The notes beneath the pieces are model-generated. The model did not search any database, had not been told where the DNA came from, and worked only from the letters and a program-made list of their open reading frames with translations. DNA of 64,000 nucleotides from Alphaproteobacteria bacterium (lineage in GTDB: Bacteria > Pseudomonadota > Alphaproteobacteria > UBA7985 > JAUIBT01): contig JAUIBT010000021.1 in NCBI GenBank assembly GCA_030428255.1, positions 1 through 64,000 on the forward strand. The letters are read 5' to 3'. The position numbers were made by a program, and so were the translations under genes. Below, in pieces: positions 15,743 through 42,228 of this stretch (position 1 is the first letter of the stretch; each line of letters opens with the position of its first letter).

Positions 15743-16528
15743 TTAATAGGCGGAGGCGGCAGCACCTTGTGTATTGCGGAAGCTAGCAACCGACGCGCTG
15801 GCCGTGTTCTTCAACGCAACTGCGTCAGCCCAACCGGTCACAAAATCATAGCCAATGTCACGCATCTGCTGCGCGTAGTCGATTGTCCCGCAGTGTATGC
15901 CAGCTTTTTTGCCCAGCCGGTGCGCCAGATCCTTGAGCGATACGATGATATCATAAAGCTCGCCGTCTTGGTGGTCGAGCTTGGCGGGATAGCCATAGGA
16001 GCGGGCCAGGTCGGACGGGCCCAAGTAGTAGGCGTCTATACCGGGCGTCGACAAGATAGCCTCAGCGTTGGCAACGGCCTCGCGGGTTTCGATCATGGCA
16101 AAGCGGGTGATCATGGCGTTGGCGTTGTTGCCATAGCTGGCGTCGCAAACCAAAGAGGCGCGGATCGGCCCGTTGGAGCGCACGCCTTCGGGCGGGTATA
16201 GCGCGTAGGAGGCGAATTCGGCGGCTTGCTCTGGGGTGTTGATCATGGGGCAAATGACCCCCAAGGCGCCCAGATCCAGGCAGCGCATGATATCGCCAGC
16301 ATCCAGCCAAGGCACGCGCACCACCGGAGTGACGCCCTGCGCTTTAACGCCCGCCAGCAAGGTCGGCAATTGGCCGATGTCAGCCAAGCCGTGTTGCAGA
16401 TCGATAGTGACCGCATCAAAGCCAGTGTGGGTCGCAATCTCAGCCGAGAATTCGCTGGTCAGAGAAATCCAAGCGTTGAGTGCGCTCCGGCCCGATTGCC
16501 AAAGGCTTTGAAGAGAGTTTTCGACCAC
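15743..16528 (-). CDS. HpcH/HpaI family aldolase
   Basis: 261 residues, starting at a GTG at 16528 with GGAGGAC ahead of it. T-I-D-L-Q-H-G at about 41-47 (the catalytic His loop), V-V-R-V-P near 69-73 and Y-Y-L-G-P-S-D-L-A near 167-175 match class II HpcH/HpaI aldolases, which cleave 2-keto-3-deoxy or 4-hydroxy-2-oxo acids. The metal ligands are normally Glu and Asp; E148 in M-I-E-T-R and D174 in the GPSDL block are candidates. The gene stands alone, divergent from the AEC transporter. The physiological substrate is not evident. Confidence 0.85.
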   Translation of the reverse strand: MVENSLQSLWQSGRSALNAWISLTSEFSAEIATHTGFDAVTIDLQHGLADIGQLPTLLAGVKAQGVTPVVRVPWLDAGDIMRCLDLGALGVICPMINTPEQAAEFASYALYPPEGVRSNGPIRASLVCDASYGNNANAMITRFAMIETREAVANAEAILSTPGIDAYYLGPSDLARSYGYPAKLDHQDGELYDIIVSLKDLAHRLGKKAGIHCGTIDYAQQMRDIGYDFVTGWADAVALKNTASASVASFRNTQGAAASAY

Positions 16529-16727
16529 GGAGTCCTCCAGAGGTTGGGCGCGTTCTATTGCGCCGGATCATAACTGGCGGCGACCTTAGGCCAAGCGCCC
16601 TGGGCAGGCAAGCCGGTGGTGATCCCAGATGGCAGAATGGCAGAGCGGCAGGTCAGGCGGCCGCTTGACCTGCATCGCACAGGGGGCAAGAAAGGCCGCC
16701 TACTCGTGCTCTTTATTTGGCGGTTTC

Positions 16728-17630
16728 ATGGTTTTGGGATTTGTGCTGGCGGTGGCGAACGTGCTTTCCCCAGTGGTTGCGACCGCTGGGATTGGCTTTG
16801 CCTGGCAAAAGCTGCGCGGCGACTTTGACCGTGTGTTTGTGGGGCAACTGGCGCTGAACGTGGCCGCCCCTTGCCTCATCCTCTCGGCCTTTTCGCGCCC
16901 AGAGCTTCAGCTCGCGACGGTGGGGCAGGTGGTGTTGGCGGCTAGCTTGATGGTGGCGGCGTTTGCGCTGGTTTTGGTGCCGCTGCTGCCCCGCTTGGGA
17001 CTGGCCTATCGCGATTTCCTACAACCCTTGCTATTTCCCAACACGGGCAACTTGGGCTTGCCACTGGTGTTTTTCGCGCTGGGCGATGCCGGCTTGGCCT
17101 TCGGCTTGATCTTTTCCAACGCCATCATGGCTTTTCACGCGCTCCTGGGCGTGCCCGTGACTTCCGGTCAGTTCTCGATCAAGCAGTTGGCGCGCAATTC
17201 CATGTTCGTCGCCTTCCTCGCGGCGGTGCTGCTTAAGACCATAGACTGGCAGTTGCCCGTCGCGGTGCTGAACTTCTGTCAGATGATCGGCGCGATTGTG
17301 GTGCCGCTGATGCTGATGGCGCTGGGCTCCAGCTTGGCCAGCTTCAAGCCATCGGGCGGTGGGCTGATTTTGGGGCTGTCAGCTCTGCGGGTCGGGTTGG
17401 GCAGCCTGGTGGGGTTTGCCATTGCTGAGGCGCTGGCGCTGCCAGACCCGCTGTATGGTGCCTTCGTCATTCAGTCGGGCATGCCGGTGGCCGTCTTGTC
17501 CTACATGATGTCGGCTCAGCACAAGCGCCGTCCGGTCGAGGTGGCGGCCATGGTCCTGGCCTCAACGATCATGGCGATCGCGCTGTTTCCGTTGATTTTC
17601 GCTGTGCTGCGCTGGGGTGGCCATCTTTAA
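16728..17630 (+). CDS. AEC (auxin efflux carrier) family transporter
   Basis: 300 residues from the ATG at 16728. The open frame runs upstream to 16629, but the N-terminal addition is hydrophilic and unlike the family. About ten transmembrane helices are visible. P-N-T-G-N-L-G-L-P at about 104-112 is the highly conserved AEC block with its Asn and Pro kinks in helix 4, and Q-S-G-M-P-V-A-V near 247 is the matching block in the second half. Bacterial members export organic acids such as malate or related anions. It is divergent from an aldolase gene that makes keto acids, a suggestive but unproven link. Confidence 0.88.
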   Translation: MVLGFVLAVANVLSPVVATAGIGFAWQKLRGDFDRVFVGQLALNVAAPCLILSAFSRPELQLATVGQVVLAASLMVAAFALVLVPLLPRLGLAYRDFLQPLLFPNTGNLGLPLVFFALGDAGLAFGLIFSNAIMAFHALLGVPVTSGQFSIKQLARNSMFVAFLAAVLLKTIDWQLPVAVLNFCQMIGAIVVPLMLMALGSSLASFKPSGGGLILGLSALRVGLGSLVGFAIAEALALPDPLYGAFVIQSGMPVAVLSYMMSAQHKRRPVEVAAMVLASTIMAIALFPLIFAVLRWGGHL

Positions 17631-17681
17631 GTTCGCCCATGGCCTAGCGGCCTCGAGTTCACCCTCGCGCGCGGCCCCGCC

Positions 17682-18710
17682 TCAGTCCTTGTGATGGGTC
17701 GAGGGCATGATCGAGCGGCGTTTGCGCGGCTTGACCTCGGGCTCCGGCTCCGTCGCCTGGCCTTCAGGCGCGCTGCCCCAAGGCTGAGCCTTGTGAGCCA
17801 TGGGCTTTCGGTGCAAAAGCGAGCCATCGCCCCACTTGGTCTCAAACTCTTGCTTGCTCATGGCCGAGTCGAGGTAGGCGCGATAATCCGCTTTGAACTC
17901 GGCCTCCTGCGGGCTGAGCGGTCTGCGGTGGGGAACCGGCAGAGTCCTGACGTTGTTGTCGGTTCTCTGCGGGGGCTTGGCCCGGCCGCGGCGATAGCTG
18001 GCCCAGCGCTTTTGGGTCGGCGTTCGATGGATGAAATCCATCCAAGCAAACAAGGGGTCCAGCGCCACGTTGCGGTACTTGAAAATTGGAATGAGCAACG
18101 CGCCACAGGCAAAGCCGCCCAAATGCGCCCACCAGGCCACGTTTGAGGCGTTGGGCGCAAAGACCCCAAACACCTGCTGAGCAAACCACACGGCGAAAAA
18201 GGCAATGGCTGGCATGGGCACCGGGAAAAAGAAAATCAGTAAGATGAAGCGCGCAAAGGGGTGCATCATCAGGTAGGCCGCGAACAGGGCCGCGATAGAG
18301 CCTGACGCGCCGATCATGGGCGTAAAGGGATCGCCCGCAAAATAGATCTGTGCCAGGGCTGCAACCACGCCGCCCAGCAGGTAAAACAGCAGGTAACGCA
18401 GGTGGCCCATTGCGTCCTCGACGTTATCGCCCACCACCCAAAGGGCCAGCATATTGCCCAAAAGGTGCATGAGATCGCCGTGCAAGAATTGGTAGGAGAC
18501 CAGACGCAGCGCGGGCAGCAGCTCGCCCGCTGGGGCCGAGGCCTGATTGGTGAACAGGGCGGGATAGACCGCGAAATTATAAACGTTGCTGCGGCCAAAG
18601 CCCCCGATCATCTCGAGCAGAAAGATGCCAACGCAGGCCGCCATCAAAGCGTAGGTCACATAGGGCTTGGAGATATGGCGGGTCGGGTTGTGGTCGCCGA
18701 TTGGCAGCAT
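17682..18710 (-). CDS. Rhomboid-family intramembrane serine protease
   Basis: 342 residues. Six or seven transmembrane helices span about 20-210. H-G-D-L-M-H-L-L-G-N-M at 77-87 supplies the oxyanion-hole His and Asn, and G-A-S-G at 134-137 gives catalytic S136. A-H-L-G-G-F at 195-200 gives the catalytic His 196. The rhomboid dyad is therefore complete. A C-terminal cytoplasmic tail of about 130 residues is rich in Arg, Pro and Lys and includes a short E-A-E-F-K-A-D-Y-R-A-Y-L-D segment. It begins 3 bp after the xthA stop, so it is probably translated from the same mRNA. Targets are unknown. Confidence 0.92.
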   Translation of the reverse strand: MLPIGDHNPTRHISKPYVTYALMAACVGIFLLEMIGGFGRSNVYNFAVYPALFTNQASAPAGELLPALRLVSYQFLHGDLMHLLGNMLALWVVGDNVEDAMGHLRYLLFYLLGGVVAALAQIYFAGDPFTPMIGASGSIAALFAAYLMMHPFARFILLIFFFPVPMPAIAFFAVWFAQQVFGVFAPNASNVAWWAHLGGFACGALLIPIFKYRNVALDPLFAWMDFIHRTPTQKRWASYRRGRAKPPQRTDNNVRTLPVPHRRPLSPQEAEFKADYRAYLDSAMSKQEFETKWGDGSLLHRKPMAHKAQPWGSAPEGQATEPEPEVKPRKRRSIMPSTHHKD

Positions 18711-31703: not shown

Positions 31704-32489
31704 ATGACTCTGGACCTTAGCCACCTGCGCGTCATGCTGGTCAATGACGACGGCATCGACGCGCCGGGCCTGGCCTTGCTTGAGGAGTCATTGCGGCCTT
31801 TGATCCCCGATCTGTGGATCGTGGCCCCCAGTGCTGAGCGCTCTGGCGCTTCGCGGCAGATCTCGTTACGGCGAGAAGTTGCTGTCGAGGAGCGCGGCGG
31901 GCAGCGATTTGCGGTGGATGGCACGCCCACCGACTGCGTGCTGATCGGCTTGCGACATTTGATGCAGGAGCGCAAACCCGACCTGGTGCTCAGCGGCATC
32001 AATGCGGGCGGGAATCTGGGCGAAGACATCGGCTATTCGGGAACCTGCGGTGCGGCCTTTGAGGCGCGCCAGTCAGGCGTTCCGGCCATAGCCTTCAGCC
32101 AGGTGCGCTCGACGATTGCAGCAGACGGTATTTGGTCGGCCTCGCGGGCATGGCTGCCGACCCTGCTGCCCGACTTGACGGCTTTCGCGTTAAAGGGCTG
32201 CGCTATGCTGAACGTCAACTTTCCGGCCTGTGAGGGCGGGGCGGTTAAGGGCGTGCGGGTGGCCCACCAAGGCGAACGCGAGGAGTCCTCGCAGACAGAA
32301 GAGCATGGAGCGGGCGACAAAAAGCGCAGCTTTTACTTCTCGTTTTTGCGCTCCGACGTTCCCAAGGACGAGGGCTCGGATATCGATGCAGTGCGCAACG
32401 GCTATGTTTCCGTGACCCCGATTACCCCGGATGTGACCGACTATCGCGCGCTCAGCCGCCTGACGGTTGCCTTGAATTTGCACCGCTAA
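31704..32489 (+). CDS. surE: 5'/3'-nucleotidase SurE
   Basis: 261 residues. V-N-D-D-G-I-D-A-P-G near 14-23 gives the metal-binding Asp pair, A-P-S-A-E-R-S-G-A-S near 43-52 and S-G-I-N-A-G-G-N-L-G-E-D near 98-109 complete the SurE site, and Y-S-G-T-C-G-A-A follows. SurE dephosphorylates nucleoside monophosphates and sits next to pcm in many proteobacteria. The gene starts 3 bp after serS and ends in a TAATG overlap with pcm. Confidence 0.95.
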   Translation: MTLDLSHLRVMLVNDDGIDAPGLALLEESLRPLIPDLWIVAPSAERSGASRQISLRREVAVEERGGQRFAVDGTPTDCVLIGLRHLMQERKPDLVLSGINAGGNLGEDIGYSGTCGAAFEARQSGVPAIAFSQVRSTIAADGIWSASRAWLPTLLPDLTAFALKGCAMLNVNFPACEGGAVKGVRVAHQGEREESSQTEEHGAGDKKRSFYFSFLRSDVPKDEGSDIDAVRNGYVSVTPITPDVTDYRALSRLTVALNLHR

Positions 32490-33196
32490 TGCGTCCGGGC
32501 AGCCCATATCTTTATTCTGGACGCGCGGGCAGCGGCAACGGGGGCCACAGTGCGAGTGATGCAGCCCAAAGGGCGCAATTCACCTTGGCTTTGCGTCGGG
32601 CGGGGGTGATGGACACGCGCGTTCTGGCCGCGCTTGAGCGGGTGCCGCGCCCGGCTTTTGTGCCGGAATCGTTGCGCTCTCACGCCTACGAAGACTGCGC
32701 GCTGGCGATTGGCCTGGGGCAGACTATATCCGCGCCTTCGGTGGTCGGGATGATGACCCAAACCTTGGCGCTGCAACCCGAAGATAATGTGCTGGAGATC
32801 GGCACAGGATGCGGATATCAGGCGGCGGTCTTGGCCTGTTTGACCCGGCGGGTCACCAGTATCGAGCGCCACGGCCCACTGGCTGCCACGGCGCAACAGC
32901 GCCTGGCCAAGTTGGGCTTTCTCAACATTTCTGTACGCCACGGCGACGGCTTCTTGGGCGCGCCTGATCAAGCACCCTTCGACGCGATCATGGTGACAGC
33001 CGCCGCGCCGCACGTGCCCCCAGCCTTGACCCAGCAACTGGCCGAAGGCGGGCGGCTGATGATCCCGCTGCAAGTCGAAGGCCAAGCGGGCGAGCAGAGA
33101 GCCAAACTGCTTCTTTTGCGGCGCGACGGGGCGAATTGGCACCAACAAGTCATTGATCAAGCGAGCTTTGTTCCCATGCTGACGGGCCTAGACTGA
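32489..33196 (+). CDS. pcm: Protein-L-isoaspartate O-methyltransferase
   Basis: 235 residues. V-P-R-P-A-F-V-P near 52-59, I-G-L-G-Q-T-I-S-A-P near 74-83 and the SAM-binding V-L-E-I-G-T-G-C-G-Y-Q-A-A near 102-114 are diagnostic. It methylates isoaspartyl residues in aged proteins for repair. The start shares a base with the surE stop. Confidence 0.93.
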   Translation: MRPGSPYLYSGRAGSGNGGHSASDAAQRAQFTLALRRAGVMDTRVLAALERVPRPAFVPESLRSHAYEDCALAIGLGQTISAPSVVGMMTQTLALQPEDNVLEIGTGCGYQAAVLACLTRRVTSIERHGPLAATAQQRLAKLGFLNISVRHGDGFLGAPDQAPFDAIMVTAAAPHVPPALTQQLAEGGRLMIPLQVEGQAGEQRAKLLLLRRDGANWHQQVIDQASFVPMLTGLD

Positions 33197-33350
33197 GCGG
33201 CTCATCGGTCAGCGACTGCCACATCTAGGCCCAAATCGTCCCTAAATGGCCCCGCTTGACCTTGGCTTGCCACTGGCAAAAATGCTGGGATTCGCTACAC
33301 TAGCGGTATTTTAGACCAGTATAGATTTGACATATTTGAAAGGGTTGACC

Positions 33351-34553
33351 ATGGCGACCTGGAGTTTTTCGGTCCTTGGACGCGGCGTGCGCAAAACCTG
33401 CCTTTTCGGGCTAACTGCCCTCGCGCTCCAGTCTGCGCCCTTTGCTTTGAGCAGTGCTCAAGCTGGGGTGAACGATCTCTTTCCGACCAATCGAACCGCA
33501 GGCGGCTTCATCACTGACGGCGGCGTCTATGACGTTGTGCAGGGCGACACGCTCTATGGCATCTCCAAGCGATTTGGCGTGAGTATTGCCAATATCAAGG
33601 CGGCCAACGACCTGACGAGTGACCTTATTGGCCCCAACACGCTGCTTAAGATTCCGGGCGTGGGTGCGGGCGGTGGCTTGCTAGCTCCAGCGTCGTTTGA
33701 CGCAGGGGCGGTCAATGGAGCCTTTGCCTCCAGCCGCAGCTACACGGTCAAGTCAGGCGATACGCTGTACAAGATTTCTGTCGCCAACAAGGTCTCCGTT
33801 CGCGACTTGACTGCCATCAATCAGCTGAGAAGCGGCGACCGCATCCGCGTTGGTCAGGTGTTGATGTTGCCTGCCAAACCGGGTGGCCTAAACCAGTTAA
33901 CCGCCAAGAAAAAGCTTGAGCCGCAGGGCAACACAGGCTTTGGCAGCGGCCTGGGAGCCAGCCAGGGCGCAACGCAAGTGGCCAGCTTGGGCCGCAGCCT
34001 GTCGGTCCCCAAGCCGGTGCGCAAGCCCGCCGCGGTCGCAGCCCAGCAAGTCGCCGCGACGACCAGCGCCCAGGTCCAGCGTCCCGCGGCCGCGAGCACG
34101 CCAACACCAACGCCAGCAGCACAGCAGGTCGCCAAGAAAGACAGCGCCGCACCCGCTCCGACTGCCAAGTCAAAGGCTGCGAGCCTCATGTGGCCCGTGC
34201 GCGGTCAATTGCTCGAGAGCTTCGGTCTCAAGTCAGGTGGCGTCAAAGTCGATGGCATCACGATTGCTGTCAACGAAGGCGAGCCCATTAAGGCTGCTGG
34301 TGACGGCATGGTGATGTATTCCGGCAGCGTGCTGGCAGACTTCGGCCAACTGCTGTTGATCAAGCACGACAATGGTCTGATCACCGCCTATGCGCACAAC
34401 AAGAGCATTTCGGTGAAGAAAGGCCAGCGCGTGACCTCAGGGCAGGTGGTGGCTTTGGCCGGTCAAAGTGGCAAAGCCGAGCGCCCTCAGCTCCACTTCC
34501 AAGTGCGCGAGAACGGCAAGCCGGTCAATCCGCTGCCCTTCTTGACGCGTTGA
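33351..34553 (+). CDS. LysM/LytM (NlpD-like) protein with incomplete M23 metal site
   Basis: 400 residues from the ATG at 33351; a TTG at 33327 is less likely. A signal peptide runs to about residue 38 (A-Q-A). Two LysM domains lie at 60-103 and 130-175 (Y-D-V-V-Q-G-D-T-L and Y-T-V-K-S-G-D-T-L), then an Ala/Pro/Gln-rich linker, then an M23 fold at about 284-398. The first metal His of the HxxxD motif is replaced (G-G-V-K-V-D) and the HLH motif reads Q-L-H-F, so it is probably non-catalytic. By analogy with NlpD/EnvC it would activate amidases for daughter-cell separation. It follows pcm as in relatives. Confidence 0.9.
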   Translation: MATWSFSVLGRGVRKTCLFGLTALALQSAPFALSSAQAGVNDLFPTNRTAGGFITDGGVYDVVQGDTLYGISKRFGVSIANIKAANDLTSDLIGPNTLLKIPGVGAGGGLLAPASFDAGAVNGAFASSRSYTVKSGDTLYKISVANKVSVRDLTAINQLRSGDRIRVGQVLMLPAKPGGLNQLTAKKKLEPQGNTGFGSGLGASQGATQVASLGRSLSVPKPVRKPAAVAAQQVAATTSAQVQRPAAASTPTPTPAAQQVAKKDSAAPAPTAKSKAASLMWPVRGQLLESFGLKSGGVKVDGITIAVNEGEPIKAAGDGMVMYSGSVLADFGQLLLIKHDNGLITAYAHNKSISVKKGQRVTSGQVVALAGQSGKAERPQLHFQVRENGKPVNPLPFLTR

Positions 34554-34618: not shown

Positions 34619-36214
34619 TCAGTTCGACTTACGCAAGAAGACCGTGCCGCGTTTTTTGGGTTTGGGCTTTTTTTCTTCTTTGGGCTCGACGATGGCCAAC
34701 CGCCCTTTGGCCTTGGGCAGGGGCGCGTCAATTGCCGCTTGCTCCAAGGCGGCGTTGGCATCTTGCTCGGTTGCACCAGGCTCGTCTGGCTCACCTTCGT
34801 CTCCCAGTCCCAAACCGCCGTCTATCGCGCCTTCTTGCTCGGCTGCAGCCTGCTCATTGTCCTGATCCTGGACATCCAGATCTGCGCTCTGCGAGGTGCT
34901 GGTGGCTTTTGGATCGGCGGGCTTGGGTTGCCAGGCTGCGACCTCAGCCAAACTGACACGCGTCAAGCCAGCCTCACTGTTTTTACCCCAAACGCCGTCG
35001 GGCTCGCCAGACAGGTGACCCAGAGCAATCAGTTCGCTCTGAACGGCTTTGACCAAACGCGTTGGGCGTTGATCGCCGTTTTCCAACCAGAGCTGCTGGG
35101 CGGAAGGCAGGCCTTGCGCCACAGCCAGAATGTGCGCACGCGCGGCAAGCTTGCGGTTGCGCGACGACCCCAGGTTCGCCTCCCAAGCCTTGAGCTGTTG
35201 GCTTTGTGCTTGCTGGTCCCCTTGCTGAATCGCGAGTTGCAGATAAGCGACCTTGAGCGGCGCAGAGGGCTCGAGCGCCGCCGCCAAACGCAAGGCCCAA
35301 GGGTGATCGGCCTCCAGGGCCGGTGCGAGCAAATCGTTGATTACGCGCAGCGACGCCCCATCGCGCCGCTCGAGCAAGGCCAGGATCACCAGGCCGTTCA
35401 GATCGCCAGCATCTGCGGCGCGCTGGGCCAAACTGCGCGCGGGCAAGTGCTTCGCCAGGCGTTGCCAGGCTGCAGCGGCCAAGGCTGGTGGCACCGCATG
35501 GTCGACGGCATAGGACAAGAGCCCTGCTTTTTTCTCATCCGGGCTCTGGCTTCGCCACAGCAAGTAAGCTGCCCAGGGATCGCCGGGCGCTGCCGCAAAG
35601 GCCGCCAGGCAAAGCGACTGGGCCTGCTCGCTGTCCAGATACCAGCTGTGTTGCCCGCCGTATTGTCTAGGCGCAGCAGCGCTCTGGCACGCGCTGCGTT
35701 GCTGCTGCCAGGTTGCTGTTTTCTGTTGCATGTCTTGCGCGCGGGATTGCAGGGCGTCTTGGGATCGGCAAATCAAGCAGCGGCTCTTATAGCGCTCCAA
35801 GCCGGCCGGGCTAATGCTGGCGGCTTGCCACAACTCGCTGTCGTAGCGCCGCTTTTGTTCGGCGATGCTGGACTTTAAGGCGGCCACGTCCAGCGGGCCC
35901 AAAGGATCTTGCGGCAGGGGTGCTGCACTGGCTTTGGGATCGGGGCGCGTTTCCAAGCAGTTGGGGCACAGGGCTTGGAAGGCTTGCCATGAGGCTTGAT
36001 CGAAGGCCAGCGCTGCAAAACGCCGCGTCAGATCGCTTTGAGCCTGCTCATAGGCGTCTAGCTGGTCAGCGGCCGTGTCATCGCTGGCGAGTGGCTGTGC
36101 AAAGGCGGTCGCTGTGAGCAGAGCAAGGCCGACCAGCAGCGCCACGCTAAGACTAGGACTCGCGCGCGAAACCAGCGCCAAAGCAGACTTGCAGAAATCC
36201 CGGTCTGCGGTCAT
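34619..36214 (-). CDS. Exported CxxC-repeat protein with peptidoglycan-binding-like domain, smallest of three relatives
   Basis: 531 residues. A signal peptide ends near residue 40 (T-A-F-A-Q). Two CxxC motifs follow at C83/C86 and C146/C149, then a paired-cysteine module (C176...C202) with Q-Y-G-G between. A helical TPR/Sel1-like region comes next. A PG_binding_1-like domain at about 383-417 has V-Q-S-E-L and G-E-P-D-G-V-W-G. The last 110 residues are acidic, then basic and low-complexity. The ATG overlaps the stop of the M23 peptidase gene (ATGA). Domain order matches the two larger proteins of this operon with fewer repeats. I do not recognise the function. Confidence 0.8.
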   Translation of the reverse strand: MTADRDFCKSALALVSRASPSLSVALLVGLALLTATAFAQPLASDDTAADQLDAYEQAQSDLTRRFAALAFDQASWQAFQALCPNCLETRPDPKASAAPLPQDPLGPLDVAALKSSIAEQKRRYDSELWQAASISPAGLERYKSRCLICRSQDALQSRAQDMQQKTATWQQQRSACQSAAAPRQYGGQHSWYLDSEQAQSLCLAAFAAAPGDPWAAYLLWRSQSPDEKKAGLLSYAVDHAVPPALAAAAWQRLAKHLPARSLAQRAADAGDLNGLVILALLERRDGASLRVINDLLAPALEADHPWALRLAAALEPSAPLKVAYLQLAIQQGDQQAQSQQLKAWEANLGSSRNRKLAARAHILAVAQGLPSAQQLWLENGDQRPTRLVKAVQSELIALGHLSGEPDGVWGKNSEAGLTRVSLAEVAAWQPKPADPKATSTSQSADLDVQDQDNEQAAAEQEGAIDGGLGLGDEGEPDEPGATEQDANAALEQAAIDAPLPKAKGRLAIVEPKEEKKPKPKKRGTVFLRKSN

Positions 36215-37356
36215 GGCAGGTCACTCCCCCAAGCCTCGGGCAGCGACACCAGCGCCTGGCTGTTTTCGGTCCGAGACTCGCTGGTCTCAAGCTGCTGGGC
36301 AAAGGGCAATTGCTGGCTCCATCGCCAGGTTTGCGCCAGTTTGGGTGCCTTTGCATCTTGCTCTAACCGATCCAAAACATACTCGGGGTCAATCGCGTTC
36401 TTGTCGTCGCGCTTGGCATCGGTACCAGTCGGGCCAACAACAAAAATCGCATAGTGCAGGTGGGTCTGATAGCCCCAAGGCGCCAGCTTGCCGATCATTT
36501 GTCCCGCTTCGATCCTTTGGCCTTTGGCGTACTTGCGCAGGGGCGTCATGTGCCAGAAGAGGTGCTGTACATCGTCGGTTTGCAAAATGATGCCAACGTT
36601 GGTGCCGCGACCATGGAAAATCTTGATGATCTCACCCGAGACATGGCTGTACACAGGGGTGCGCACCGGCGCCTTCACATCCAAGCCGCCGTGAAAGTCC
36701 AGCCCATTGAGATTGCGCCAACCAAAGTCGGAGGTGACCACCCCTAGGCCTGGATCCTTGAAAAAGGGCAAGCGATTGTTCCAGGGGCGCTGCGGGTAGG
36801 AGGGCAGTTCGCTTCGCTTGCGCTTATAGGGGTTTCGGTAGGGATTGTTGGCGTAGGACTGCTTGTGCCACTGCTGCATGGTCGCGTGGTCGGGCAAGAC
36901 GATGATGTCGTTGGGCCCGGACTTGGCCAAATCGCTAAACTCCCAGGAAGGCTCGGGTGGCGCGACCGGCTCGCTGTTTTCCGGCTTAGCGGTTTTCGAG
37001 GAGTCGGACTTGGGCTTGGACGTTTTCTTTTTCTTTGTCTCGCTTTTGCTTCCGCCGCTAGAGGGCGCGGGCTCGCCGATCTTGCATTTTCCCTTCAAGA
37101 ACTGGTGCAGCATGCACTTGGGTTCTGCGGCTAGGGTTGAAGCCGTTGGCAGGGCGAGCGCGACCACGGTCACCAACGCGATCGAAGCGAGCCCGAGCTC
37201 GGCCAGGGCGCTTCGGGCAGCCTTGGATTTGGCCAGATGAGAAACCTTCGGCGCGCGGCCTGGCACGCCGCCCGGCCCGCTGCCTTGTAGGCCACCGGCC
37301 TGCCTGCCTTTATGATTTGCACTTTGGGGTGGGAGGTGGCGGTCTGATTTGGCCAT
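36211..37356 (-). CDS. Exported M23 metallopeptidase with intact zinc site
   Basis: 381 residues. A basic 50-residue N-terminal segment precedes a signal/anchor helix (about 53-77, ending L-A-A). Right after it is a cysteine pair C81...C91 (C-x9-C), then a Lys/Ser-rich linker. The LytM/M23 domain at about 205-335 has H222-x3-D226, H269 and H299-x-H301, all the zinc ligands. It should cleave peptidoglycan cross-links, unlike the degenerate LysM/M23 protein at 33351. It lies 6 bp after one CxxC-repeat gene and overlaps the next by 4 bp, so it is made together with them. Confidence 0.9.
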   Translation of the reverse strand: MAKSDRHLPPQSANHKGRQAGGLQGSGPGGVPGRAPKVSHLAKSKAARSALAELGLASIALVTVVALALPTASTLAAEPKCMLHQFLKGKCKIGEPAPSSGGSKSETKKKKTSKPKSDSSKTAKPENSEPVAPPEPSWEFSDLAKSGPNDIIVLPDHATMQQWHKQSYANNPYRNPYKRKRSELPSYPQRPWNNRLPFFKDPGLGVVTSDFGWRNLNGLDFHGGLDVKAPVRTPVYSHVSGEIIKIFHGRGTNVGIILQTDDVQHLFWHMTPLRKYAKGQRIEAGQMIGKLAPWGYQTHLHYAIFVVGPTGTDAKRDDKNAIDPEYVLDRLEQDAKAPKLAQTWRWSQQLPFAQQLETSESRTENSQALVSLPEAWGSDLP

Positions 37357-37362
37357 GCCGTT

Positions 37363-39618
37363 CTAGCCTCGCTCACGCGCGCGGTTCAGCGCCTTAGTGG
37401 TGGTTCCGCCGGCCACCCCGTCGATGGGCCCGCGATATAACCCTTCGTCTCGTAAGAAACGCTGTATGTGTTTCATAACCTCCAGAGGACGCGATCGGCC
37501 TTGGTCGATCAGGCGGGTTTCGGCCCACTTGGATTGCCCCTTAAGGGCCTGATAATACAGCTCGGCCGCCAGCTTATAGTCAGCAGCAACGCCTAGACCG
37601 CGCTCGACGTGGTCCGCATAGTATGCGCTGGCCTCGACGTGCCCGAGGGCAGCGGCCGTTTGGAAGGCCCGTGCGGCTTTGCCAAGATCGCGTTCGGTGA
37701 GCTGGCCAAAGGAGTAGAGCAGGCCCAGCGTATAAGCGGCTTCCGCTTCTTGCCCTTCTGCTGCAGTCTCCAGCAGGCTAACGATCTCAGGCTGGGGCAG
37801 CAGGCGTTCGGCATTGCCAAGCTGCTCGATCTCAATCAGCGCTTCCACCAAGGCGGCACGAGGTGTCAGTGCGGCCAGGGCAGGGCGGTTCGCCATGATG
37901 TCCGCAAGCCGCCTGCGGCCTTGTGAGCCTGCCTTTGAAAACTGGAACAGGCTTAGTGCAAGCCCGTCGAGCCCATCGGCCTCACCGGCTTGGTAGGCCT
38001 GATCGAAGGCTGCAACCGCCCGTTCGGCTTTGCCTTGCAGGCGATAAGACTCGGCTAGCACCAAGCGCAGCGCGCCGCTGTCGGCTTGCTCAAGCGCGGT
38101 TAAGCAGGCTTCCTCGGCTTGGGCCGCTTCGCGCGGTTGCAGGCCATCGCCGCCCGAACGCGGGCTCCGGGCCAAATCCAAGCATCGCGCCTGAGCCGTG
38201 TCGCGGGCGAAGGCGGCATCATAACGTGCCTGTATGTCGTCGCGCTGTTCGCAAAGCTGGCAGCCCTCAAGGTAGGCCTGCATCTGGGGCAGGCTTGGCT
38301 CTGACCCCATGGCGGCCAAAAGACGGCGATCATTAAGCGCTTCGGGGTCAGGGCCAGCTTTCTGTTGCAAGCGCAAGGCCTCGGGCGAAAAGAGGCACAA
38401 GCTGCAATCTTCCAGGTAGCTGCCATAGGAATCGGCGCTGTTTTCTTGGCGCGCCTGCTGCCAAAGCGCGGTTTCAGCTTCCAGCTCAGGGTTCGCGGTC
38501 GTGAGTGCTTCGGGCTCCAGTGCCTCGGCAAAGCTGCAATCCATGCAGGCTAGGATCAGGCCGCGCATCACATTCGGATCAGCCAGGCTTGAGGCGTCGG
38601 CCCACAGCCTGGCCTCCACAGCTGCGAGCTGGTCAGGCCAAGTCGCGGCCACGTCTTGAATGATGGTCGGGGCAATCGCCGCGTTGGGGTAGGCTGCGAT
38701 ATATCCGAACACGCCTTGCGGTGCGGCACCGGCCACTACGGCTTGCCACTGGCGCAATTGTGTTTCGCGATTGGTATCGGCCGCCAACAAAGTCAGCAGC
38801 TGCTGGTTCAGCGCTTGGCGCTCTTCGCAGTACTGGCACGTTTGAAGGTGCTCTTGCAGGGCTTCCGCATCGCTCGACTGTAGCAGGCTGAGCGCTTTCA
38901 AGCGCTCGATTGCGGCCTGCTGTAGGTCCTGCGGGGCGGGAGAAAAGAGCGTCAAATCGAGCTGGTATTGGGCAGCGATTGCTGTCGGACGCCGCAAGGG
39001 CGCGCGCAACTGGCGCGAAAGGTAGCTCACCAGATCAACAAGCGATAGTTGGGCCTCAGGAGACGATCCTGTCTGCTTCGCGCTTTGGGGAGCAAAACCG
39101 CCCAGCGCGCGGCGCAGGGCTTCGGCGAGCTGCTTTGGGCTGGCCTCGCGGGCAAATATAAGCGCGTAAGGACCATCGGCTTCAACGCAGGTCAGCGCGG
39201 AGCAGGCTTGCAGGGCAACCAAGGTTTGGCCGCCGTTGTGGGGGTCTGTGATGTGAACCACAAAGCCACGATCTTTGGCGGCCTTGCGGGTCTGGAGAAT
39301 CAGTGTTTGCTCGCCACCGCCCAGTGCTGCCAGACCTTCGGCAAAGGCCTGAGCCTGGCTGGGCTCGCCCTGGACTTGGAGTACCAAGCTGCGCGCCGCG
39401 GGCGGTGCCTGGACCTGTTGTGCCTGGATCTGTTGTGCCTGGACCTGTTGTGCCTGGACCTGTTGTGATGCGATCAGGCCGCTGAGCAATGCCATGGCGG
39501 CACCGGCGATCACAGCGAGCCCCGAGGTGCGGCGACGCCAGCACGCACGCTGGCCCCTTTGATTGGCACTGGGTGAACGCCCCTGTGCAGGGGTGATGCT
39601 CGGTTGAGGCTTAAACAT
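37363..39618 (-). CDS. Exported CxxC-repeat, Sel1 and peptidoglycan-binding-like protein (second of three relatives)
   Basis: 751 residues from the ATG at 39618, which has GGAGG 5 nt upstream; the frame is open to a TTG at 39636. A membrane helix at about 33-50 is followed by a V-Q-A-Q-Q repeat. An alpha/beta region (about 75-175) follows. CxxC repeats have first Cys at 261, 358, 405 and 453; the slot between 261 and 358 holds Y-I-A-A-Y-P-N-A without Cys. A paired-Cys module (C479...C505), Sel1 repeats (A-A-Y-T-L-G-L-L-Y) and a PG_binding_1-like end (Q-R-F-L-R-D-E-G-L-Y-x-G-x-I-D-G) complete it. Function unknown; probably periplasmic and wall-associated. Confidence 0.8.
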   Translation of the reverse strand: MFKPQPSITPAQGRSPSANQRGQRACWRRRTSGLAVIAGAAMALLSGLIASQQVQAQQVQAQQIQAQQVQAPPAARSLVLQVQGEPSQAQAFAEGLAALGGGEQTLILQTRKAAKDRGFVVHITDPHNGGQTLVALQACSALTCVEADGPYALIFAREASPKQLAEALRRALGGFAPQSAKQTGSSPEAQLSLVDLVSYLSRQLRAPLRRPTAIAAQYQLDLTLFSPAPQDLQQAAIERLKALSLLQSSDAEALQEHLQTCQYCEERQALNQQLLTLLAADTNRETQLRQWQAVVAGAAPQGVFGYIAAYPNAAIAPTIIQDVAATWPDQLAAVEARLWADASSLADPNVMRGLILACMDCSFAEALEPEALTTANPELEAETALWQQARQENSADSYGSYLEDCSLCLFSPEALRLQQKAGPDPEALNDRRLLAAMGSEPSLPQMQAYLEGCQLCEQRDDIQARYDAAFARDTAQARCLDLARSPRSGGDGLQPREAAQAEEACLTALEQADSGALRLVLAESYRLQGKAERAVAAFDQAYQAGEADGLDGLALSLFQFSKAGSQGRRRLADIMANRPALAALTPRAALVEALIEIEQLGNAERLLPQPEIVSLLETAAEGQEAEAAYTLGLLYSFGQLTERDLGKAARAFQTAAALGHVEASAYYADHVERGLGVAADYKLAAELYYQALKGQSKWAETRLIDQGRSRPLEVMKHIQRFLRDEGLYRGPIDGVAGGTTTKALNRARERG
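39406..39465 (-). repeat. Four tandem 15-bp repeats encoding a VQAQQ-type motif
   Basis: The plus-strand unit TGCCTGGACCTGTTG occurs four times without gaps, one copy with a single change. It lies just after the membrane helix of the encoded protein and keeps frame, so copy number could vary by slippage and change linker length. Confidence 0.9.
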
Positions 39619-39632
39619 AGGGGCCTCCACAA

Positions 39633-41960
39633 TCAACGCTCAGTGAAGAGGCGGTCTTGCAGCGCCTTTTCCAAACCACGCTGGGTGTTGAGGCCGTATT
39701 TTCCGTCAAGGGCCTTGTCGTAGTAGCCCTGGCGGGAAAGGTCGCGTTGCACGAAGCGCATCACCTCGATGCTGCGCTCGCGACCTTCATCGACAAGCGC
39801 AATTCGGGCCTCGGTGCCGCCAGCAAGGTAGGCGTCCAGATAGAGACGCGCGGCGCGCCTAGACTGCACTCCAGCCGGGCTGTTGCCGGACTCCAAGCTC
39901 CGTGCGAGCAGGGCTTGGGCGTCCAGTTGCCCTTGCTCAGCGGCCTCGGTCAGCAGCTCGATGATGCGCTCTTGGTCCGCCACATCACCGCTTGACGCTT
40001 GGGCCTGCAGGCGGCGGGCGAGTAGGTATTGCCCCATAGCTGAGCCCTCGGCGGCAATGGCTTCCAGCGCAGAATTAACCTGATCGTCTTCGGCCTGGAT
40101 GAGGTCCTGCTCGACCAAAAAGCTCCAGATTAGCGTTGCGGTGTGGTCGCCCGCGGCCTGGCCTTGCTCGGCATAGCGCTTGGCTGCGGCGAGGTCGGGT
40201 TCAAGATCAGGCAAGTCGAAATAGTTGACGTAGGCGGCCATACCCGCAGCTGCGGCAGCGCCTTGGCCTTCGCTTGTTGCGGCGGTCTCAAACAGGGCTT
40301 TGGCTTCGCTGTATGCCGCGTTGAGCATCAAGGCGCGCCCCAAGGCGGCTGCCAAATCAGCGCGATCGGCGAAGCGCTCGACCGCTTTGCGGCAAGCTGG
40401 GATGGCATCAGCGCGAGAGATCTTGCCGAGCGGTAGGCCGCCGTATTGGCTGCTGGCCGCCAGCGACAGGCAGGGGCGGGCAATGCTCGCCTCATCTTGG
40501 GCGTCACGAATGGAGCGCTCAAGTTGTTGGGCTTCTTGGCTGAATTGGCACACGCTGCATCCTTCCAGATAGGCGCGCGCTAACGTTAGATCTTGCTGCA
40601 CCTTGGCATTGAGCCAGGAATCACGCTCGGCCAAGGCGCTGGGCGAGGTCAAAAGCGCCTCGCTCATGGTCTTCGCTTCGGCTTCGAATTCGCACACCTG
40701 ACAGGTCTTTAGGTAAGCATCTAAGGCCGACAAGGTGTTGGTCTTGCGGGCTTGGAAGAAGGCCAAACGCTCGTCGGCTTGCTGACTCAAGTCACCAATC
40801 TGGTCCAGCGCCTCTTGTTTGTACGCACACACTTGGCAGGTCTTTAGGTAGCGGTCGAGCGCGTCCAAAGTCTTAGCGCTTTGGAAGGCCTGGCTGTCGG
40901 CTTGACGCGCTTCTTCGGTTTCCAACTCGTTGAGCAGGGCCACGGCTTCTTGTTGGAAAGCGCAGGTTCGGCAGGCGGCCAACAAGGTACGCAATCCGGC
41001 TGCGTTGCGGCTCTGCTTGAGCTGCGCAAAATAGACTTGCTCGGCTTGGGATTGCGCTTCGCTTTCGATCAATTTGCGTTGCGCGCTCGCAAGTTCACCC
41101 GCCATGGGGCAAAAAACGCAGCGTTCAAAATAGCCTTGGAGGGAGGAGAGATCAGCGTCGCCTTGCAGCAAGCCTTGTGCCTCGAGCTGTTCAGATTGCA
41201 GCGCGACTTCATCACTGACATGCGCGCTGGCCAGACCGGCAAGGCCAAACAACGACAGAGCCCGCCCAGAGTTCATATCTTGCGCGGCAAGCTGTTCTCC
41301 AAGACGGCGCGCCATGCTGCGGTACAAGAAGGCCAGCAATTCGGTGTTGGCCAAGATCTTGTCATCGTTGCCGAAGGGCAGGCGGTCGGCGTAGCCAAAC
41401 AGGCCCCGGCGGAGTTGTTCAAACAAGGCCGCACGGCTAGCCTCATCATCTTGGCTGCGGGCGATGGCGTAGAGATCAAGTTGCGCGTTTTGCGCGGCTT
41501 CTTGGTAGATCCAACCTGTGACGCTGCCATCGACCAGCACAATTAAGTGCTCGGTTTGCATGGCTTGGGTCAGACCGGCGATGCGCGCCATAAGCTGAGG
41601 CCCGCTCTGATCTGGCGCATGCAATACCACCAGCGCCAAGCCATCGCCGAGCGCCGAAGCGTTCAAATCAGCAAGTGCCACATCGCTCAGCGAACGGCTT
41701 AGGCCCAGCCCGCCTGCCTGCGCCAAGGGTGCCAAGAGCGTTTTGGCCTGAGCGCGATAAGCGTCGTCGTCAGAGGCCACAACGACCCTTTGCTGGGTCC
41801 ATTGCAAGGCAGCGAGACTTGATGCGGCACCGTTGCTAGTGTCTTGGGCTGCGGCTCCAAGCGGCGCAAACAGGTATGCCAGCAAGCTGAGAGCCAGCCA
41901 CGGACGCTGAACGCGCAGCCTGTTCACAAGGTGGGCGATGGCGGTGCGAAACTCTGGCAT
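39633..41960 (-). CDS. Exported CxxC-repeat, TPR/Sel1 and peptidoglycan-binding-like protein (first of three relatives)
   Basis: 775 residues. A signal peptide ends near 38 (G-A-A-A). An alpha/beta domain at about 57-225 contains L-A-L-V-V-L-H and L-I-V-L-V-D-G-S and might be a decayed caspase-like fold (speculative). Five CxxC repeats follow with first Cys at 281, 330, 375, 420 and 468, each in a Y-L-x-x-C-x-x-C-x-x-x-x-E-A context. A paired-Cys module (C497...C523), TPR/Sel1-like repeats and a PG_binding_1-like end (V-Q-R-D-L-x-x-Q-G-Y-Y, L-D-G-K-Y-G) finish it. GGGAGG precedes the ATG. It is the first gene of the four-gene operon. Function unknown. Confidence 0.82.
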   Translation of the reverse strand: MPEFRTAIAHLVNRLRVQRPWLALSLLAYLFAPLGAAAQDTSNGAASSLAALQWTQQRVVVASDDDAYRAQAKTLLAPLAQAGGLGLSRSLSDVALADLNASALGDGLALVVLHAPDQSGPQLMARIAGLTQAMQTEHLIVLVDGSVTGWIYQEAAQNAQLDLYAIARSQDDEASRAALFEQLRRGLFGYADRLPFGNDDKILANTELLAFLYRSMARRLGEQLAAQDMNSGRALSLFGLAGLASAHVSDEVALQSEQLEAQGLLQGDADLSSLQGYFERCVFCPMAGELASAQRKLIESEAQSQAEQVYFAQLKQSRNAAGLRTLLAACRTCAFQQEAVALLNELETEEARQADSQAFQSAKTLDALDRYLKTCQVCAYKQEALDQIGDLSQQADERLAFFQARKTNTLSALDAYLKTCQVCEFEAEAKTMSEALLTSPSALAERDSWLNAKVQQDLTLARAYLEGCSVCQFSQEAQQLERSIRDAQDEASIARPCLSLAASSQYGGLPLGKISRADAIPACRKAVERFADRADLAAALGRALMLNAAYSEAKALFETAATSEGQGAAAAAGMAAYVNYFDLPDLEPDLAAAKRYAEQGQAAGDHTATLIWSFLVEQDLIQAEDDQVNSALEAIAAEGSAMGQYLLARRLQAQASSGDVADQERIIELLTEAAEQGQLDAQALLARSLESGNSPAGVQSRRAARLYLDAYLAGGTEARIALVDEGRERSIEVMRFVQRDLSRQGYYDKALDGKYGLNTQRGLEKALQDRLFTER

Positions 41961-42228
41961 GGGGCCTCCCTAAAGCCGAATGAGGCTGCAGCGGCGCAGC
42001 CCGGTCTTATTACAAACTGCGGGCACAATACGAACGCGCGCAGCCTCATAGATAATCTTGCAAAGGTTCTAGCAGGTCTGTCGATCTTACCCGACATGCC
42101 TTTAGGCCGACGCCAGCGCCGGCGGCAAAATGCCGTCCGGTATCTTAGCCTTGGCCCGCCCAAACCGGGGCGAACGATGCCTGACTGAGACCAGATAATC
42201 AACCTAAAGTTTAGTTAACGAGAGACCG

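Follow-up and report, generated by a model that had tools for sequence, protein, structure and literature searches.

A genus-limited alphaproteobacterial operon that joins predicted exported cysteine-repeat proteins to cell-wall enzymes

The E. coli tetratricopeptide repeat (TPR) lipoprotein NlpI is a scaffold for peptidoglycan endopeptidases (PMC7049810). In Sinorhizobium, RgsM, a putative peptidoglycan metallopeptidase (M23), and RgsF, which carries TPR and six Sel1 repeats, are growth factors of one network (PMC7327166). The Helicobacter proteins HcpB and HcpC are secreted Sel1-like solenoids stabilized by disulfides (PMC3851747). Among prokaryotic homologues of caspases, Sel1, TPR, FGE-sulfatase or peptidoglycan-binding domains are frequent additions, and 75% of the alphaproteobacterial members keep the cysteine-histidine pair while a quarter lack it (PMC3501461). 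Here, we describe an operon in a 64,000-nucleotide stretch of an alphaproteobacterial genome (contig JAUIBT010000021.1; hereafter the window) that encodes three homologous CxxC-repeat proteins, here named A, B and D, along with an M23 metallopeptidase, and that has an L,D-transpeptidase gene as its neighbour. We propose, with confidence that is about evenly balanced, that the operon specifies a periplasmic peptidoglycan-remodelling assembly in which an NlpI- or Rgs-like scaffold organizes an endopeptidase and a transpeptidase. Most likely it is a novel variation, restricted to one genus, on wall-enzyme scaffolds that are already known.

A preliminary description of this DNA had reported four genes, and we confirm its four open reading frames, which lie almost end to end on the minus strand at 34619-41960. 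To that account we add an L,D-transpeptidase gene of the YkuD type and an N-terminal alpha/beta domain in protein A. The five genes are:

34619-36214, minus strand: protein D, 531 residues
36211-37356, minus strand: M23 metallopeptidase, 381 residues, with a signal anchor or signal peptide and the motifs HxxxD, FWHM and HLH
37363-39618, minus strand: protein B, 751 residues from an ATG behind GGAGG, or 757 residues from a TTG at 39636
39633-41960, minus strand: protein A, 775 residues
42229-43173, minus strand: YkuD L,D-transpeptidase, the fifth gene, upstream of A, with its H...SGGCIR motif intact

For protein B, the likeliest start is the ATG at 39618, which follows GGAGG. Gene ends are as close as had been described: the M23 and D genes overlap in ATGA, and 6 bp separate B from M23 and 14 bp separate A from B. 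The order transpeptidase-A-B-M23-D recurs in a second species of the genus (L005), making two species in all, and transpeptidase-A-B-M23 is found in a third (G001), whose contig ends inside the M23 gene; in all three, the L,D-transpeptidase is the same-strand upstream neighbour. Linkage of the CxxC genes with the M23 gene is thus conserved in three species, which rules out a gene order unique to one strain. Between species, A, B and M23 are 60-69% identical at the protein level and D is 47% identical, and every cysteine of the mature A, B, D and M23 proteins is retained in the species compared. Within 41960-42228, the stretch right after the transpeptidase stop (AAACTTTAAGTTGATT onward) is likewise conserved in the three species; it could serve A as a promoter or regulatory element.

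A, B and D are homologous to one another and to a paralogue, protein C (817 residues, five CxxC units), which is encoded elsewhere in all three genomes and shares homology over about 600 residues (E-values 2e-32 for A0-C0, 4e-12 for A0-B0 and 3e-10 for A0-D2). Protein A consists in order of a signal peptide (signal peptides were judged by eye from n-region, h-region and AxA), the N-terminal alpha/beta domain, five CxxC hairpins, a paired-Cys cap, Sel1/TPR-like repeats and a PG_binding_1-like C-terminus. Protein B has four CxxC hairpins with one YPNA hairpin among them, followed by the paired-Cys cap, Sel1 repeats and a PG_binding_1-like end. Protein D has a signal peptide, two CxxC units, the paired-Cys module, helical repeats, a PG_binding_1-like segment and a tail that is first acidic, over a long part, and then basic. 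The elements of A and B map as follows:

41391-41798, minus strand: alpha/beta domain of A, about residues 55-190, from a low-confidence model
41109-41120, minus strand: CxxC unit 1 of A, residues 281-284
40962-40973, minus strand: CxxC unit 2 of A, residues 330-333
40827-40838, minus strand: CxxC unit 3 of A, residues 375-378
40692-40703, minus strand: CxxC unit 4 of A, residues 420-423
40548-40559, minus strand: CxxC unit 5 of A, residues 468-471
40392-40472, minus strand: paired-Cys module of A, residues 497 and 523, spacing 26
39675-39758, minus strand: PG_binding_1-like segment of A, Pfam score below cut-off
38827-38838, minus strand: CxxC unit 1 of B
38677-38748, minus strand: YPNA hairpin of B in CxxC position, residues 297-320 of the 757-residue form
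38536-38547, minus strand: CxxC unit 2 of B
38395-38406, minus strand: CxxC unit 3 of B
38251-38262, minus strand: CxxC unit 4 of B
38104-38184, minus strand: paired-Cys module of B, spacing 26

The CxxC counts (5 in A, 4 in B, 2 in D) compare with shuffle means of 0.05-0.2, and the paired-Cys module has the same 26-residue spacing in all three proteins. The earlier view that the three predicted exported proteins are built to one plan is supported, with their Sel1 and PG_binding_1 scores falling below cut-off. The Sel1 match in B is weak (22.6 bits against a Pfam cut-off of 30.7), whereas paralogue C passes (46.4 bits); C also passes for TPR_19 (28.6 bits), where A, B and D stay below their cut-offs. 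An AlphaFold2 model of A built from four sequences (predicted local distance difference test score, pLDDT, 60.6) shows helical hairpins across the CxxC and Sel1 regions, with CxxC in the loop that joins a short helix to a long one (helix 328-337, C338-C341 and helix 344-370 in mature numbering). Foldseek and sequence-profile searches of the PDB returned Sel1/TPR solenoids, the LbcA-CtpA complex among them. At about 39420-39470, the mature start of B contains a short tandem repeat (QQVQAQQVQAQQIQAQ) that is not seen in the other two species.

The CxxC units resemble a hairpin repeat found in caspase-type proteins. A reference profile made from 25 [YF]PxG units of such proteins matches B and C sequences (B2 2e-6, B1 6e-5, C2 2e-4, C1 5e-4) and a caspase, L138 (2e-9); the best of 280 shuffled sequences reached 0.035. 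A and D score near the shuffle level against this profile, so their inclusion rests on their homology to B and C. Both types of unit have the same length and share a register, with YL before, [FY]PxG aligned with CxxC, and A after. Given these matches and the shared register, we identify the CxxC unit, at the level of sequence, as a cysteine variant of the caspase-associated [YF]PxG helical hairpin. One protein with [YF]PxG hairpins scores just below cut-off to YfiO.

What the cysteines do can be narrowed by counting them. In each of the three species, the mature forms of A, B and C have exactly 12 cysteines apiece; for D and M23, both species examined give counts of 6 and 2. In A and C, the CxxC units and the paired module together account for all mature cysteines; in B, another pair lies within the N-terminal region, where no GHG motif occurs. 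Among the caspases of the genus, seven have GHG, a recognized catalytic cysteine and a placeable signal cut, and their totals of 23 or 27 cysteines become even once the catalytic residue is set aside. In an eighth, L139_2257, the signal cut could not be located, so that its 30 cysteines do not lend themselves to this comparison. These even totals in the operon proteins, and even-plus-one totals in the active caspases, favour structural disulfides, which fit the sequences better than metal or heme. Four matches to the DsbA family are found in the window's genome. The preliminary description had suggested a redox-controlled or metal-dependent scaffold, a reading in which the CxxC pairs would hold a metal or work as redox switches. 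CxxC is indeed a common redox or metal motif, and in the model of A it lies in turns between helices. However, the five units of A and C are an odd number, awkward for four-cysteine metal sites, no thioredoxin fold is predicted at the CxxC region, and CxxC merely takes the place that [YF]PxG has in the structural turn of other lineages. With the even cysteine totals added, we consider metal or redox control distinctly improbable. CxxCH is absent from all members examined, which also rules out a heme or c-type cytochrome reading.

Both wall enzymes retain their catalytic motifs. The Peptidase_M23 domain scores 47.6 bits against a cut-off of 28.7, and HGGLD (HxxxD), FWHM and HLH are in place at residues 222, 268 and 299; judged by its family, the enzyme can be expected to bind metal and to be active, in agreement with the earlier judgement that this peptidase is zinc-competent. 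The cysteine pair that had been noted behind its signal segment is present and is conserved in the second species:

37084-37116, minus strand: Cys pair of M23, residues 81 and 91, directly behind the signal segment

The YkuD domain of the L,D-transpeptidase scores 47.9 bits against a cut-off of 23.4, with its catalytic motif HATGAVGNLGRRASGGCIR intact at residue 227.

How far the repeat proteins and the peptidase belong together can be judged from their distribution. Over the 385 genomes of the class, a full-length profile (A2) was swamped by Sel1 matches and useless for this purpose, so profiles of the N-terminal/CxxC region (A3) and of the repeat unit (A4) were used; neither gave full matches outside the genus in these genomes. 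A3 weakly matches proteins in three genomes outside the genus (E-values 1e-7 to 1e-12), two of which, when read out, carry [YF]PxG hairpins, and a further match is to an exported caspase of the window's genome. The operon is limited to one genus among the genomes searched. The wider M23 subfamily is present in nearly all same-order genomes searched, and the copies inspected look mostly like lipoproteins without the cysteine pair. Read by eye, the genes that often adjoin such M23 lipoproteins in L047, L051, L048 and L058 resemble those of TAXI-type substrate-binding proteins.

Several of these observations weigh against a dedicated wall-enzyme scaffold. In other families of the order, M23 genes of this subfamily are present although CxxC genes are not, which limits the CxxC-M23 association to the genus. 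Paralogue C is not beside M23; in the genome of the window, its neighbour is GDSL-like. Together with the M23 copies that lack CxxC genes, the position of C means that neither strictly needs the other. Between the L,D-transpeptidase and A lies a gap of about 190-270 bp that contains the conserved stretch and possibly a separate promoter. Finally, PG_binding_1 scores only 14.6-16.6 bits in A, B and D, below the cut-off of 23, which C passes with 25.5. The separate occurrence of CxxC genes and M23 subfamily could mean that a duplicated family of cysteine-rich repeat proteins simply sits beside wall enzymes, as neighbours that share no function. We consider this quite unlikely, because the tight, apparently translationally coupled gene order is kept across species whose proteins have diverged to 47-69% identity.

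The repeats also raise the question of a caspase connection. A model of the N-terminus of A from two sequences (pLDDT 56) consists of five alternating strands and helices, and the N-terminal domains of these proteins may be dead caspase domains. If so, the solenoids could belong to a network of exported caspases (orthocaspases), in which A, B and C would be inactive paralogues acting as binding partners or regulators of the active exported caspases of the genus, and the link to M23 would be secondary. Besides the fold of the A model, this reading draws on active caspases of the same genome that carry CxxC units (C21 and C28), on one CxxC-bearing caspase that has an FGE-sulfatase domain and PG_binding_1 below cut-off, and on hhalign comparisons with the genus caspases, where the N-terminus of the C family beats 150 of 150 column shuffles, A 148 and B 147. 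When the caspase set is widened, 28 shuffles score above A. In hmmsearch, single sequences score like shuffles against both genus and wider caspase profiles; Pfam C14 finds no match in A, B, D or paralogue C; no His-Cys dyad is present in any of the four; and Foldseek with the N-terminal model of A returned generic Rossmann/CheY-like folds, with no caspase among the best 50. With hmmsearch at shuffle level and the hhalign gain mainly in C, we do not claim caspase membership for A, B and C and keep it as a lead, and we regard the caspase network as a rather unlikely account of the operon. A combined scheme appears improbable to us: a genus-specific system in which exported, disulfide-stapled inactive-caspase paralogues would link M23 with the L,D-transpeptidase on peptidoglycan, in the role of scaffolds or of redox-sensitive regulators, and would tie wall remodelling to active exported caspases with the same cysteine-rich repeats.

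Individual caspase-like proteins of the order vary in their cysteine content. The exported protein at L138:4881-7952 (own genome, contig 21) has GHG and DTCFSG caspase motifs, CxxC-type hairpins, a strong FGE-sulfatase domain and PG_binding_1 below cut-off, and is unmatched by Pfam C14 at E 0.01. At L137:2244-4865 (own genome, contig 6), caspase repeats have Cys pairs 26 apart, the paired-Cys spacing of A, B and D. Exported caspase-like proteins with zero mature cysteines and [YF]PxG hairpins are found at L136:1860-4808, where SH3 domains are also present, and in L146 and L150-L152. Such cysteine-free proteins coexist with or replace the cysteine-rich ones within the same order.

Around the operon and in related genomes, a few other features stand out. 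At 33327-34553 on the plus strand, convergent to D, lies a LysM and LytM/M23 gene whose M23 domain lacks HxxxD and is NlpD-like and probably inactive; it is preceded by genes resembling surE and pcm (31704-33196). AT skew is -0.216 in 16001-18000, unusually strong relative to the rest of the window. A family represented at L057:8311-9738 has only the paired-Cys, Sel1-like and PG_binding_1 part, without CxxC, and its gene there adjoins one of CapA-like appearance; L059, from another family of the order, has a relative with a similar neighbour gene. A phosphoesterase-like gene at L005:2279-3148 has tandem SSPNSG repeats at its N-terminus.

Returning to the proposed wall-enzyme scaffold, we envisage A, B and D as exported, disulfide-stapled helical solenoids, in which CxxC pairs in hairpin turns and the cap Cys pair would stiffen the rod. 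The Sel1/TPR half would bind partner proteins and the C-terminal PG_binding_1-like domain would touch the cell wall, so that A, B and D could keep the M23 endopeptidase, and probably the L,D-transpeptidase too, where the wall grows, in the manner of NlpI with endopeptidases in E. coli. If correct, this model would add a further type of periplasmic wall-enzyme scaffold, encoded together with its enzymes; it would show how replacement of the turn motif [YF]PxG by CxxC yields disulfide-stapled solenoids; and it would link exported proteins of the bacterial caspase type to the cell wall.

The preliminary description knew of no system with this make-up. Relatives do exist: the repeats are a variation on the hairpin that accompanies caspases, and NlpI and the Rgs proteins are precedents for TPR/Sel1 scaffolds that go with M23 endopeptidases. 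Like NlpI and LbcA-CtpA, the operon would combine a periplasmic helical-repeat protein with M23-type or other endopeptidases; unlike them, A, B and D are not lipoproteins, have CxxC hairpins and a PG_binding_1-like end, and share an operon with the enzyme. The Rgs proteins, as described, are similar in bringing a putative peptidoglycan metallopeptidase and a Sel1 protein together in alphaproteobacterial growth machinery, and the available part of that account (PMC7327166) describes neither CxxC repeats nor such an operon. In the Hcp proteins, disulfides tether successive Sel1 repeats, whereas the CxxC pairs of A, B and D occupy the turn of another kind of hairpin, derived from [YF]PxG, that comes ahead of the Sel1 part. 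Caspase-associated hairpins agree in unit length, in the YL...A pattern and in having [YF]PxG in the CxxC place, but their reference proteins have zero mature cysteines, unlike A, B, C and D. Bacterial caspase homologues (orthocaspases and metacaspases) differ from A, B, C and D in that the latter have neither a Pfam-detectable caspase domain nor the catalytic dyad, yet the hairpin repeat is common to the caspases read here and the proteins of the operon.

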